Source: an uncultured Alphaproteobacteria bacterium
GTDB lineage: Bacteria; Pseudomonadota; Alphaproteobacteria; Puniceispirillales; Marisalimonadaceae
Direction of reading: 5' to 3'
Length of the DNA: 64,000 nt
Assembly: GCA_937142855.1 (NCBI GenBank)
Contig: CAKZQZ010000121.1
Span: 1-64,000, forward strand
This document shows, piece after piece, positions 10,938 through 56,676 of the stretch (the stretch's first letter is position 1; each line of letters begins with the position of its first letter). The position numbers were made by a program, and so were the translations under genes. A model generated the notes under the pieces. The model was not told the DNA's origin and did not search any database. It saw nothing but the letters and a program-made list of their open reading frames with translations.

Positions 10938-11956
10938 TTAGACATTTCCATCAATTCACCATAGTTATTTGGAAGATCTAATCTTTCAATAATTTTAATA
11001 AAAGGTGGCAATTTTTGTTCTTTAATTTTTTTATAAAGATTTTTACCGCAAATAAATTGAATATTATTTTTTGATTTATTCTCTTTTGATTTTCTCCATA
11101 AAGATCTTAAATGATTTTGAAATTCAAACTCTTCTTCATTTATATAAAACCTTTCCAGTGGTGGAAAATTTCTGGGAATATAAAGTTCATATAATTGCAA
11201 TCTTGAGAAACCAAGAAAGCTTCCATCAGAAAAATATTTTTTCCCTTTGTTTAAAATATATTCATGTAGTTTTTTTTTGCTCTCAAACGAAATTCTTGGA
11301 AAATCAATAATAATCATTCCTCCAATATTTCTTAGTTTGATTTCTTCTATACATTTTATAAATACTTTTTTACTAAATTCCAAATTAGCTTCATCTGAAT
11401 CTAATAATAAATTATGTGTGTCTACATCAATTAGTGTTGCTGTCTTAGTTTTCTCTATCCATAAAACACCACCATTCTTGATTTCCACTCGGGAATTCAA
11501 AGCGTTAAGGAAAATTTTGTCTAAATCTAAAATATTCCAATATATGGCGTGATGATCTTCCACAATTGGTAAGTTTTTTTGAAAAAAAAGATGAATAATC
11601 CTCTGTATATTGCTTAATTCTAAGCAATCAGACATGTCTTGTAAGAAAATTTTTGCTTGGACTGGTTTATCATCATATTGTTCACTTGTAATGATAACGT
11701 CAATTTTACTATTCGCTTTTATGTCTTTTGGAACACCTCTAACAGTGAGAACCAGATGATCCTTAGTTTTTGCTCGTACAACTCCCCCATTTAATTTTTT
11801 AATGATATCCGCTTTATAAATATTTCCAATTATAGGAGGGCTACTATCAGGCCAACAAATATATTTTGTTAAAATTCTATCTTCAATTTCTGCTATTCTT
11901 GTCTGACCGGCACATTTATCTATTAAAATAAAGTGATCTTGAATCTTACGTGGCAT
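10934..11956 (-). CDS. rng: Ribonuclease E/G family protein, short form
   Basis: This protein of about 340 residues belongs to the RNase E/G family of endoribonucleases for rRNA and mRNA processing. The DNase I-like catalytic region is present: TATLIDVDTHNLLL and GGMIIIDFPRI carry the two metal-binding aspartates. The N-terminal part (GNIYKADIIKKLNGGVVRAK) matches the S1-like domain region. E. coli RNase G has 489 residues; here the CPxCxG zinc link and most of the region beyond it are absent. The track start at 11974 is a TTG; I prefer the ATG at 11956. It overlaps maf and yacG in a tight operon. Confidence 0.8.
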   Translation of the reverse strand: MPRKIQDHFILIDKCAGQTRIAEIEDRILTKYICWPDSSPPIIGNIYKADIIKKLNGGVVRAKTKDHLVLTVRGVPKDIKANSKIDVIITSEQYDDKPVQAKIFLQDMSDCLELSNIQRIIHLFFQKNLPIVEDHHAIYWNILDLDKIFLNALNSRVEIKNGGVLWIEKTKTATLIDVDTHNLLLDSDEANLEFSKKVFIKCIEEIKLRNIGGMIIIDFPRISFESKKKLHEYILNKGKKYFSDGSFLGFSRLQLYELYIPRNFPPLERFYINEEEFEFQNHLRSLWRKSKENKSKNNIQFICGKNLYKKIKEQKLPPFIKIIERLDLPNNYGELMEMSK

Positions 11957-51801: not shown

Positions 51802-53034
51802 ATGGTTTTAAAAAAAAAATTATCAAAGACTTTAGAAAGAATGTTTTCTTTACATCCTAAGTTAATTGATTTTGATCTTTCTAGATTAAAATTTTTAATG
51901 AATAAATTTGGTAACCCTGAAAATCAATTAAAAAACGTTATACATATTGCTGGCACTAATGGTAAAGGATCGACAGCATCTTTTCTTAAAGAAATTTTAG
52001 AAGCTCACGAACTAACAGTCAACGTCTACACTTCTCCACACTTGATAAATTTTAATGAAAGAATACGAATAAGAAATAAATTAATTTCTGATGAATTATT
52101 AATTAATATTTTAGAAAATATTGAACTTGAAAATAAGAATAAACCCATAACTTTTTTTGAAATAACAACTGCTGCTGCATTAATTGCCTTTCAAAAATAT
52201 AAGAGTGATTTCAATATAATTGAAACTGGTTTAGGTGGCAGATTAGATGCTACCAATATAATTGATAAAAAAAGGCTTTGCATTATTACTAAGATTGGTT
52301 TCGATCATACAGAGTTTCTTGGTAAAAAAATTAAACAAATAGCATTCGAAAAATCTGGTATTCTTAGAGAAAACGTACCTGTAATTATAGCAAAACAAAA
52401 ATATAAAAATGCCCTGGAAACAATACTCGATTCAGCTTCAAAAATTAATGCTAAGGTGATTAATATTGATAATATTTCTGCAAGTACAAAAATTGGATTA
52501 AATGGAAATCATCAATATGAGAACGCTACATCTGCTTATACTGCTGCAAAAGAATTATTACCATCTATAAGCTCCTTAAAAACTCAAGAGGCTTTTAAAA
52601 AAGTATCATGGCATGGTAGAATAGAAAAAGTAGAACGAGGTAAAATTGTTAAGGATAGGAAAAATCTAACAATTTTGGATGGTTCACATAATCAAGACGG
52701 TGCTTACGTTCTAAATCAATACTTGAATCAAACACCCTTATTAAAATGGAATTTAATTATTGGTATGTTAAATAACAGAGATATAGAGGCTTTTATAAAT
52801 ATATTTAAGCAGCACTTAAACAGAGCTTATGCTATAGCCATACCGAACATTGATAATTCTCATAAACCGAACGACATATCATTAAAATTAAATGCGCTAG
52901 GTATAGAAACACATCCTATGAAAAATTTAGAAGAAGCATTGAGATACTCAGATAAGAAAATGCCCCTTCTAATCACCGGGTCTTTATATCTAGCTGGACA
53001 TGTTTTGAAATTTAATAATACTCAAATAGTTTAA
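51802..53034 (+). CDS. folC: Folylpolyglutamate synthase / dihydrofolate synthase
   Basis: This 410-residue Mur-ligase-like enzyme adds glutamate to folates and makes dihydrofolate. It has HIAGTNGKGSTASFLKEIL (P-loop), VYTSPHLINFNERI and LTILDGSHNQDGA. An A10 run lies in codons 3-6 without disturbing the frame. The stop overlaps the convergent trxA stop by 4 bp. Confidence 0.95.
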   Translation: MVLKKKLSKTLERMFSLHPKLIDFDLSRLKFLMNKFGNPENQLKNVIHIAGTNGKGSTASFLKEILEAHELTVNVYTSPHLINFNERIRIRNKLISDELLINILENIELENKNKPITFFEITTAAALIAFQKYKSDFNIIETGLGGRLDATNIIDKKRLCIITKIGFDHTEFLGKKIKQIAFEKSGILRENVPVIIAKQKYKNALETILDSASKINAKVINIDNISASTKIGLNGNHQYENATSAYTAAKELLPSISSLKTQEAFKKVSWHGRIEKVERGKIVKDRKNLTILDGSHNQDGAYVLNQYLNQTPLLKWNLIIGMLNNRDIEAFINIFKQHLNRAYAIAIPNIDNSHKPNDISLKLNALGIETHPMKNLEEALRYSDKKMPLLITGSLYLAGHVLKFNNTQIV

Positions 53035-53362: not shown

Positions 53363-54784
53363 CTATCTATTGACATTAAATTTTTTTTCCAACTTTTGAA
53401 GAAAACCATCTAAATCATCTAAAAAAGTTAATTTTTTACCATCACCTTTTTCTTCATATTCGTTTCTTAACGTGTCTAATTGATGATATGATTTTGGCAA
53501 AGTGTTCCACTTTTCATTATCGTAACTTAACACCTGTTTTGCAATAATTTTATGAATATATTCGTAGTCATCCTTTGGTAATATATAAGGTGCTTCTTCA
53601 TAAATAACTCTATGCGCAAAATATTTGAATCTTTGATCACGAAATTGATTTGAAATATGGTATTTATCTTCCCAATTTGAGTTATGAAAGTCCAACATTT
53701 TGTTTTTATCATAGTTATCTGGGAATCCTCCAAAATATAAACTATCTTCAGGTAACATATCTAATTGAGATTTGGTAATTTGTTTTTCTTCATACTCTTC
53801 AAGAAAAATAGTATTAATTTTGTTACAAAAATCGGGATTATTTCGGATTAGCTCTGCTCTTAGATTAAGTGTCTCTAATCCTATTTCCTTATATGAAGGT
53901 ATTTTTTCAAAGTGATATTTATCCATCAAGATTGGATTTTTATTATTTTTTATCTCCCTAATTATTTTGGGTCTATGCTTCATTTTAATTTTTAGTTCTT
54001 TAATAGACAAATCAAAATAATCAATTGGGTCATGCATCAAGTCAAAACATTGAGGGTAATTAAAATAATTTTTACATACATAAGTTACGACGTGTGAACT
54101 GTACTTACCAAAAAAATATTCATCTATACAAAAGATATTGTTTTTGAGAATAAAATTATCAACATCAATTTTACTACTGCCATTCAAACCAGCTTTCCAA
54201 ACACTATTAGCTTTTTTTTGTATATTCTTAGTGAGTTCAATTGTGGCCTCAACATCACCCATAGCATCATGAGCATTGTGAACAATATTATTTAAGCGAG
54301 TTAAATTATCTAATTTAAAAACTTGATTACCCTTTTCGTTTAAACCAACCTGCAAAGAATCTGGATAATAAAATTTTGACGTTCTTGTAATACCAAGCAC
54401 ATCAGCTCTTTTATTACCGTTAAATTGGGTTATATACGGTTCAAATAGTAATTTAAAAAATGTTTTTCTTAAAAACTCTTCATCAAAATTAATTGTATTA
54501 TAACCAATGAAAATTGCTGGAGACCACTTTTTAAATAAATATTGGATTTTTTTTATTAAATCATAGTGTGATAGGTTAACGTTATTTAACATATCTATAG
54601 AGGTATTATTTACTATGAGTGCACCTGGTTCAGGAACTATTCCAGGCCTTAATTTACATCTTTCTTCAAACCTTTCTATTTCATTAAATTCTTCATCAAC
54701 TAAGATAGCTCCAACTTGAATTATTTGATCCCATGTTGAATTTCTTCCAGTAGTTTCAAGATCATAAAAAACAAATTTCATCAT
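53363..54784 (-). CDS. sbcB: Exodeoxyribonuclease I-like exonuclease
   Basis: This 473-residue DnaQ-fold 3'-5' exonuclease resembles ExoI. Metal ligands are in FVFYDLETTGRNSTWDQIIQ (Asp, Glu), YNTINFDEEFLRKTF (Asp) and VHNAHDAMGDVEATIELT (His-x4-Asp). The C-terminal part matches the ExoI SH3-like and helical region (SLYFGGFPDNYDKNKM, LPKSYHQLDTLRNEYEEKG). It degrades single-stranded DNA in recombination and mismatch repair. Its ATG overlaps the TGA of the frame-shifted tsaE reading frame. Confidence 0.9.
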   Translation of the reverse strand: MMKFVFYDLETTGRNSTWDQIIQVGAILVDEEFNEIERFEERCKLRPGIVPEPGALIVNNTSIDMLNNVNLSHYDLIKKIQYLFKKWSPAIFIGYNTINFDEEFLRKTFFKLLFEPYITQFNGNKRADVLGITRTSKFYYPDSLQVGLNEKGNQVFKLDNLTRLNNIVHNAHDAMGDVEATIELTKNIQKKANSVWKAGLNGSSKIDVDNFILKNNIFCIDEYFFGKYSSHVVTYVCKNYFNYPQCFDLMHDPIDYFDLSIKELKIKMKHRPKIIREIKNNKNPILMDKYHFEKIPSYKEIGLETLNLRAELIRNNPDFCNKINTIFLEEYEEKQITKSQLDMLPEDSLYFGGFPDNYDKNKMLDFHNSNWEDKYHISNQFRDQRFKYFAHRVIYEEAPYILPKDDYEYIHKIIAKQVLSYDNEKWNTLPKSYHQLDTLRNEYEEKGDGKKLTFLDDLDGFLQKLEKKFNVNR

Positions 54785-55280
54785 TTAATCCTTTTATTTA
54801 CAACTGGATATTGTTTTAATTTTTCAATCCACCTTTGAGAACCTACTATAGAAATTTTTCTACTATTGGATAATCCATTTTGATTGTTTTTAATTGTTTC
54901 AAAATAAATATTTAACGGATCAAAATAGCTTATTTCAGAACTAAATTTAGGCCATTCTAATAAAATTATTTTTTTTTTAAGTCTTCAAAAACACCCATTT
55001 CTTCAACTTCATCAAAACTATTAATTCTATAAAAATCACAATGAAATAATTCATAATCAAATTGATATGGATAGGTTAATACAAGATTAAAAGTTGGGCT
55101 TGGTATTTCCTTTATTTTTGTAATTTTATTAATTATTGCCTTACACAAAAATGTTTTACCAACACCTACACTTCCATTTAATGTTACAACATCACCAGCA
55201 TTTAAGGTCTTAGCCAAAAAAACGCCAAACCTTCTCATTTCAGTTTTAGAATTAATCATTATTTCTAAAAAAGTCTTCAT
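54781..55280 (-). CDS. tsaE: TsaE, tRNA threonylcarbamoyladenosine ATPase, split by a -1 frame change
   Basis: The track ORF (54966-55280, 104 residues) has the TsaE P-loop LNGSVGVGKTFLCKAII and the segment HCDFYRINSFDEVEEMG, then stops at EDLKKK just after a run of ten A (54969-54978). One base back in frame, 62 more codons read IILLEWPKFSSEISYFDPLN to WIEKLKQYPVVNKRIK, the expected TsaE C-terminus (EWP motif, then beta strands). This frame ends at 54781 with ATGA overlapping sbcB. The combined protein is about 166 residues, close to family length. It may be a sequencing indel, a real mutation rescued by slippage, or programmed slippage. TsaE is needed for t6A in tRNA and is normally essential. 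Confidence 0.85.
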
Positions 55281-55284
55281 TATG

Positions 55285-56676
55285 CTAATAGCGATAAGAA
55301 TCAGATTTAAACGGGCCCTCTACTGGAACACCTATATAATCTGCCTGTTCATTTGATAATTTTGATAATGTTGCACCTACTTTATCTAAATGTAGTTTAG
55401 CAACTTTTTCGTCCAAATGCCTAGGTAAAGTATAAACTTGATTTTTATAATCCTGATATTTTTCCCAAACTTCTATCTGAGCAAGAACTTGATTTGTGAA
55501 CGAAGCACTCATAACAAAACTAGGATGCCCAGTTGCACAACCTAAGTTGACTAATCTTCCTTTAGCTAAAACAATTAACCTTTTGCCATCTCCAAATTCC
55601 ACCTCATCAACTTGAGGTTTAATTTCTGTCCATTTCATATTTTGTAGGGATTCAACTTGGATTTCAGAGTCAAAATGACCTATATTACAAACAATAGCTC
55701 TATCTTTCATATCACGCATATGATCAACTGTTATAACATCTTTATTGCCAGTAGCCGTTACAAAAATATCTCCTCTTGAACACGCCTCTTCCATAGAACA
55801 AACTTCATATCCCTCCATTGCTGCTTGTAAAGCACATATAGGATCAATTTCTGTTACAATTACTCTTGCTCCGCCTTGACGAAGGGATGCAGCAGATCCC
55901 TTGCCAACATCTCCAAACCCAGCAACTACTGCTATTTTACCAGACAACATAACATCTGTTGCCCTTCTTATACCATCAACTAAAGATTCTCTACAGCCGT
56001 ACAAATTATCAAACTTTGATTTTGTAACTGAATCATTAACGTTAATGGCTGGGAATGGTAAATCACCTTTTTCTGCCATTTGATATAACCTAAGAACACC
56101 AGTAGTAGTCTCTTCTGTTACACCTTTGATACTATTTTGTACTTTAGTAAACCATCCTGGAGAACTTTTAAGTCTTGTAAGTATCTGAGCCTTTAATGCT
56201 TCTTCTTCTTCATTGGCTGGTGATGGAAGAACACTCTCTCCTTTTTCAGCTTTGGCTCCCAGAATAATATATAAAGTTGCATCACCACCATCATCAAGGA
56301 TCATGTTCGCAACATTATCATCAGGCCAGGTGAAAATTTTATCTACATACTCCCAATATTCTTTTAGGGTCTCACCTTTTTTAGCAAACACAGGAATATT
56401 TTGCTTTGCAATAGCAGCAGCAGCATGATCTTGAGTAGAAAAGATATTACAACTTGCCCAACGTACACTTGCTCCAAGTGAGGTCAACGTTTCTATAAGA
56501 ACCGCTGTTTGTATAGTCATGTGTAGACAGCCTGAAATTCTTGCTCCCTTTAATGGCTTACTGCTTCCAAACAAATCACGACATGCAATTAAACCAGGCA
56601 TTTCAGTCTCAGCAATAGATATTTCTTTTCTGCCCCAATCAGCTAAATTCAAATCTGCTACTATATAATCACTCAT
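55285..56676 (-). CDS. ahcY: Adenosylhomocysteinase
   Basis: This 463-residue enzyme hydrolyses S-adenosylhomocysteine to homocysteine and adenosine. The NAD site is [19 protein letters not shown], other conserved parts are [14 protein letters not shown] and [10 protein letters not shown], and the C-terminus is [10 protein letters not shown], normal for the family. It carries the insertion found in many proteobacterial forms. It lies 4 bp before tsaE in the minus direction, within the conserved chvIG-ahcY-tsaE neighbourhood. Confidence 0.98.

Follow-up and report, generated by a model that had tools for sequence, protein, structure and literature searches.

A tsaE gene divided between two reading frames at a conserved A10 tract in SAR116 marine alphaproteobacteria is probably expressed by slippage

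Introduction

In bacteria, t6A synthesis requires TsaE. In the window analyzed here, that is, a whole stretch of 64,000 nucleotides from contig CAKZQZ010000121.1 (GenBank assembly GCA_937142855.1), the tsaE open reading frame stops directly after a run of ten A residues, and sequence resembling the rest of TsaE continues in the -1 frame. How, then, could this organism make a complete TsaE? A sequence-only reading of the same DNA had offered three options, namely a programmed or tolerated slippage site, a real mutation or an assembly error, and had pointed to the polymerase slippage known from bacterial endosymbionts. The source organism is a SAR116-cluster marine alphaproteobacterium with a genome of 2.3 Mb (estimated to be 100% complete), and its lineage is free-living in the ocean, not endosymbiotic. 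The endosymbiont analogy held for the mechanism but not for the lifestyle.

The tsaE locus and its protein

The features of the locus are listed in Table 1. The break had been placed exactly by the earlier reading: the frame-0 ORF ends with EDLKKK right at the ten A residues (54978-54969, minus strand). Translation revealed that the gain of one A or the loss of two A at the tract joins the two frames into a protein of 166 aa, whose stop codon lies at 54783-54781. When this joined protein was compared with the TsaE families, as the earlier reading had proposed, it passed the cut-offs of both PF02367 (98.3 bits, vs 83.7 for the truncated protein; cut-off 26.6) and TIGR00150 (82.5; cut-off 60.1). 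The end of the PF02367 match moved from profile position 92 to 120, and the view that the -1 frame holds 62 further TsaE-like codons was thereby borne out.

Table 1. Features at and around the split tsaE gene (positions in the window)
Feature	Position	Strand	Remarks
tsaE frame-0 ORF, N-terminal part, 104 aa	54966..55280	-	TAA stop immediately 3' of the A tract; PF02367 83.7 bits, profile positions 2-92
A10 slippery tract	54969..54978	-	phase A_AAA_AAA_AAA: third base of a Leu codon and three Lys codons; same A10 and phase in 26 species
tsaE C-terminal part, -1 frame, 62 codons and TGA	54781..54968	-	stop-free internally in 25 species; dN/dS like that of in-frame relatives
Walker A motif GSVGVGKT, within the tsaE N-terminal part	55152..55175	-	translation; conserved in alignment
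E-W-P motif, equivalent of E. coli Glu108-Trp109, reachable only after the frameshift	54949..54957	-	translation; aligned with 'LIEW' of HI0065
sbcB (exonuclease I)	53363..54784	-	in the source genome, its start and the TGA that ends shifted tsaE overlap
ahcY, upstream neighbour of tsaE	55285..56676	-	synteny ahcY-tsaE-sbcB common to relatives

Walker A and E-W come together only in the joined protein, as E-W is missing from the frame-0 product. Depending on the species, the frame-0 product comprises 104-116 aa and full-length TsaE about 161-167 aa. In E. coli TsaE, the substitutions E108A and W109A abolished t6A synthesis (PMC4330362). With Walker A present but E-W missing, the frame-0 product should be inactive in t6A synthesis, as judged from its motifs. 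tsaE was found as a single copy in the genome, and tsaB, tsaC and tsaD were all intact; hence, full-length TsaE must derive from the split gene. A structure model of the naturally in-frame TsaE from one sister species (G009) had a mean pLDDT of 41.6 and was not used.

The contact with the downstream gene had also been taken as a sign that the -1 frame is translated. The TGA of tsaE indeed overlaps the first possible ATG of sbcB as ATGA (54784-54781). However, this overlap is peculiar to the source genome: in relatives, a few bases or more lie between the two genes, and they start sbcB where the source genome has its second ATG (54781), a codon in one-base contact with the TGA. Therefore, the overlap as such was confirmed, but on its own it is weak evidence for translation of the -1 frame, and the strong evidence for the split is its conservation in 26 species. 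Throughout the clade, sbcB follows tsaE directly, and in the source genome the translation of sbcB may depend on coupling to the shifted frame of tsaE.

Distribution and age of the frame break

The earlier reading had suggested that close relatives be checked for the same tract, and A10 was found at the same site and in the same phase in 26 of the 29 species of the own and sister genera in which tsaE was identified. In the own genus, 40 genomes including the source were searched, of which 13, all of limited completeness, yielded no tsaE; the gene was split at exactly A10 in 24 of the other 27 and in frame in three. Both genomes of the sister genus were split at A10. On the other hand, tsaE occupied a single frame in two other genera of the family and in other families of the order, and when 384 other genomes of the class Alphaproteobacteria were searched by pattern, none had a tract of at least eight A ahead of the E-W motif. 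No relative possessed a tsaE truly ending at the equivalent of 54966, a case that had been considered as evidence against a split gene; the C-terminus was conserved in all of them.

A tree based on AhcY and SbcB placed the two genera with split tsaE in one clade (support 100), with the split basal. The in-frame species appeared to be nested inside this clade, which suggests that the split is ancestral; parsimony gave 2-3 reversions and four changes in all, although support within the clade was modest. Thus, the split looks ancestral to the clade and would have been followed by reversions, whose positions depend on weakly supported internal branches.

Homopolymers are prone to sequencing and assembly error, and a true tract of A11 would turn tsaE into one ordinary gene. 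However, the identical A10 was present in 26 species, and the split genomes came from several projects, although most of the relatives are single-cell genomes of one large project; some are metagenome-assembled. Moreover, A11 was written at the same site in two sister species and runs of at least 11 A occur elsewhere in the source genome, which indicates that the assemblers were able to write A11. The constraint on the tract described below also runs against an error. The probability of this option, which was the last of the three raised earlier, is therefore negligible.

The three in-frame sister species (L033, L034 and L035, i.e. G009, G032 and G018) have restored the frame in two ways, two by A11 and one by T+A10. 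Such states could be taken as a sign of phase variation, in which the DNA switches between A10 (off) and A11 (on). Nearly all sampled genomes were A10, though, and neither A9 nor A12 was observed among the sampled relatives; in addition, an essential gene that is off in most single cells is implausible. We consider phase variation to be very unlikely. The three species also represent natural material for comparing TsaE levels.

Selection on the two parts of tsaE

In the 25 split species examined, the -1 part had no stop in 1515 codons, vs 140 and 254 stops in the other two frames. The dN/dS ratios between close split pairs were 0.165 before and 0.317 after the tract, and the corresponding values in an in-frame genus (g2) were 0.167 for the N-terminal and 0.290 for the C-terminal part. 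Since the ratios of the C-terminal part are alike in the split species and in the in-frame genus, selection at the protein level is about equal either way. Comparison of the codons thus shows purifying selection on both parts of tsaE, the -1 frame included.

These data bear on whether the gene is decaying. Frame 0 lacks the E-W motif, as could be expected of a pseudogene after a frameshift. However, the split is ancestral on the tree and has been retained, purifying selection acts on the C-terminus to the same degree as in relatives with an in-frame gene, and a bacterium that needs TsaE for t6A has no second tsaE while its tsaB, tsaC and tsaD are intact. A pseudogene is therefore hardly credible, and the real mutation proposed earlier, if understood as a recent inactivating one, is excluded by the basal place of the split on the tree together with the selection on the -1 frame.

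The C-terminal part could instead be started separately, so that two polypeptides associate; translational coupling is possible for adjacent split genes. No conserved ATG, GTG or TTG start for a separate C-terminal ORF was found, though, and the -1 frame opens merely 5-6 codons ahead of the tract end; in three species, including the source, it contains no such codon anywhere. The late opening of the frame together with the lack of a conserved start makes a separate C-terminal protein extremely improbable.

Constraint on the A tract

The nucleotides of the tract were constrained beyond the amino acids that they encode. First, the tract lysines were AAA in 75 of 75 codons (25 split species), whereas AAG, which accounts for 16-21% of the Lys codons nearby, was never seen in the tract. 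Among the invariant Lys columns of AhcY and SbcB, 11 of 42 were purely AAA, giving a rough probability of 0.014 for three all-AAA Lys columns by chance if relatedness is ignored. Because the species share descent and the internal branches are weakly supported, fewer independent tests underlie these tract counts than the numbers suggest. Second, the codon preceding the tract lysines, for Leu or Ile, was TTA, CTA or ATA, i.e. its third base was always A, vs 45% expected. Finally, across 28 syntenic loci (about 6.4 kb around tsaE), this tract was the sole A/T run of at least nine that they had in common. It thus appears from the alignments that selection has kept the tract at ten uninterrupted A.

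To place this site in its genomic context, we located 62 sites of at least ten A in the source genome and examined the stretches around them; 34 of the 62 were in genes on the A strand. tsaE was the only gene found to be internally split at such a run, which indicates a gene-specific pattern with no sign of general decay. The in-frame genes with such runs should give slipped transcripts too.

Runs of at least ten A are frequent inside genes, for example near the folC start, and the run at 51810-51819 is among the 62 sites. At some other A/T runs (position 11270, and loci L119, L128, L165 and L168), a split gene had been considered but was rejected by eye, either because the run lay at a gene start or junction or for want of a matching second part. 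In L119, a wecB-like gene starts at an A11 tract, and L128 has an A10 tract at the junction between a zapA-like end and the start of a gene resembling 5-formyl-THF cyclo-ligase (all names by eye).

The most serious alternative to slippage of RNA polymerase as the main route is programmed -1 ribosomal frameshifting on A_AAA_AAA_AAA, with RNA slippage being minor. The slippery heptamer A_AAA_AAA is present in the correct phase, ribosomes slide by -1 on consecutive AAA codons in vitro (PMC9207662), and one subclade has GAGG just upstream, a possible Shine-Dalgarno-like stimulator. However, neither a Shine-Dalgarno-like element nor a stem-loop was conserved over the clade (RNA folding of the flanks included), AAG, the strong variant in E. 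coli, never occurred in the tract, and the uninterrupted run of ten A was kept together with its first base, an A beyond the heptamer to be used. As both routes yield the same protein, the data are compatible with ribosomal frameshifting as the main route, which we regard as possible but unlikely.

A model for TsaE production

Taken together, we favor the view that tsaE of this SAR116 clade is a slippage-dependent gene, probably through RNA polymerase adding A at the tract and perhaps also through -1 ribosomal frameshifting. The parts of this view differ in strength. Judging from the sequence comparisons, functional TsaE is very probably made through recoding at the tract; transcription is favored with moderate confidence as the main route, on the indirect grounds that the ten A are uninterrupted including the first, AAG never occurs and no stimulator is conserved. 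Among the options of the earlier reading, programmed or tolerated slippage is thus the one backed by conservation, by the ancestral split and by selection on the -1 frame.

In this model, the chromosomal A10 alone would encode only a fragment of 104-116 aa without the E-W motif. RNA polymerase would add one A at the tract in part of the transcripts (giving A11; A8 or A14 would be equally suitable), and the transcripts with A11 would restore the frame and yield the complete protein. Ribosomal frameshifting by -1 on A_AAA_AAA_AAA would give the identical protein and might be an additional source. Two features looked for in programmed transcriptional slippage are present here: a change of frame at a homopolymer of A or T that is 8-9 or more long, in this case A10, and conservation across species, in this case in 26 of 29 with synonymous positions constrained. 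In endosymbionts, 12-50% of transcripts are corrected by slippage (PMC5009743). In E. coli, 10, 40 and 63% of the product was shifted, whether by polymerase or by ribosome, when tracts of the same phase had 7, 9 and 11 A, and dnaX relies on A9/A10 tracts (PMC3711429).

Why would the exact A10 be kept? Presumably, the cell is well served by a lower dose of TsaE that comes from a constant share of the transcripts, and this would be the simplest idea for the retention of the tract. Our literature search found nothing usable on harm from excess TsaE. A more elaborate possibility, which we consider rather improbable, is that the tract acts as a feedback sensor, low t6A leading to more ribosomal slipping on A_AAA_AAA_AAA and hence to more full-length TsaE, by analogy with release factor 2. 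The slippery AAA codons are read by tRNA-Lys(UUU), which is expected to carry t6A37 made with the help of TsaE; the typed tRNA genes (L177-L215) included a single one for tRNA-Lys, with anticodon UUU, next to several further weak tRNA-like matches. In yeast, loss of t6A raises both -1 and +1 frameshifting (PMC4717488), and in vitro the ribosome slides less on runs of AAA when tRNA-Lys is modified (PMC9207662). The split tsaE may serve to test whether the decoding that a tRNA-modification enzyme supports can in turn regulate that enzyme.

Several implications follow for the reading of such genes. Endosymbiont decay is not the only setting in which an essential gene stays out of frame at a poly(A) run: here, a lineage living free in the ocean has retained the split through speciation, in one gene only, while its other genic tracts of at least ten A are in frame. 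Throughout a whole SAR116 genus, automatic annotation will probably report tsaE as a pseudogene or its product as truncated.

Comparison with known systems

The mechanism itself is already known; as far as the searched literature shows, what is new is its occurrence in this gene and in a free-living lineage, as well as how deeply it is conserved. In that literature, we found no case of a slippage-dependent tsaE and no report linking SAR116 with slippage. The closest parallels are the frameshifted poly(A) genes of Blochmannia and Buchnera, whose frame is restored by slippage during transcription (Tamas 2008; Wernegreen 2010; as cited in PMC3017870, PMC4389277 and PMC5009743). Such genes resemble tsaE in being conserved, in having their frame broken at a long poly(A) tract in more than one species and in showing no decay in the remainder. 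Their hosts are small-genome, drift-prone endosymbionts with several such genes each, whereas the SAR116 organism is free-living, has 2.3 Mb and shows one such gene at runs of at least ten A.

dnaX is split at A9/A10 in Thermus thermophilus, and nine species have 10 A (PMC3711429). Like tsaE, it shows a -1 split at A10 at the DNA level, which in dnaX has been attributed to programmed transcriptional realignment. However, both dnaX products, tau and gamma, have roles, whereas the short tsaE product without E-W probably has no function in t6A synthesis. The gene of release factor 2, prfB, is like tsaE a core translation gene that needs a frameshift for its full-length product, and it provides a model for feedback by product activity. 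Its shift is +1, at a site with a stop codon and a Shine-Dalgarno stimulator; that of tsaE goes in the opposite direction at a different site. Finally, compared with bacterial TsaE as defined by PF02367 and TIGR00150, the joined protein is ordinary by sequence, with Walker A and E-W, and the difference lies in its encoding in two frames.
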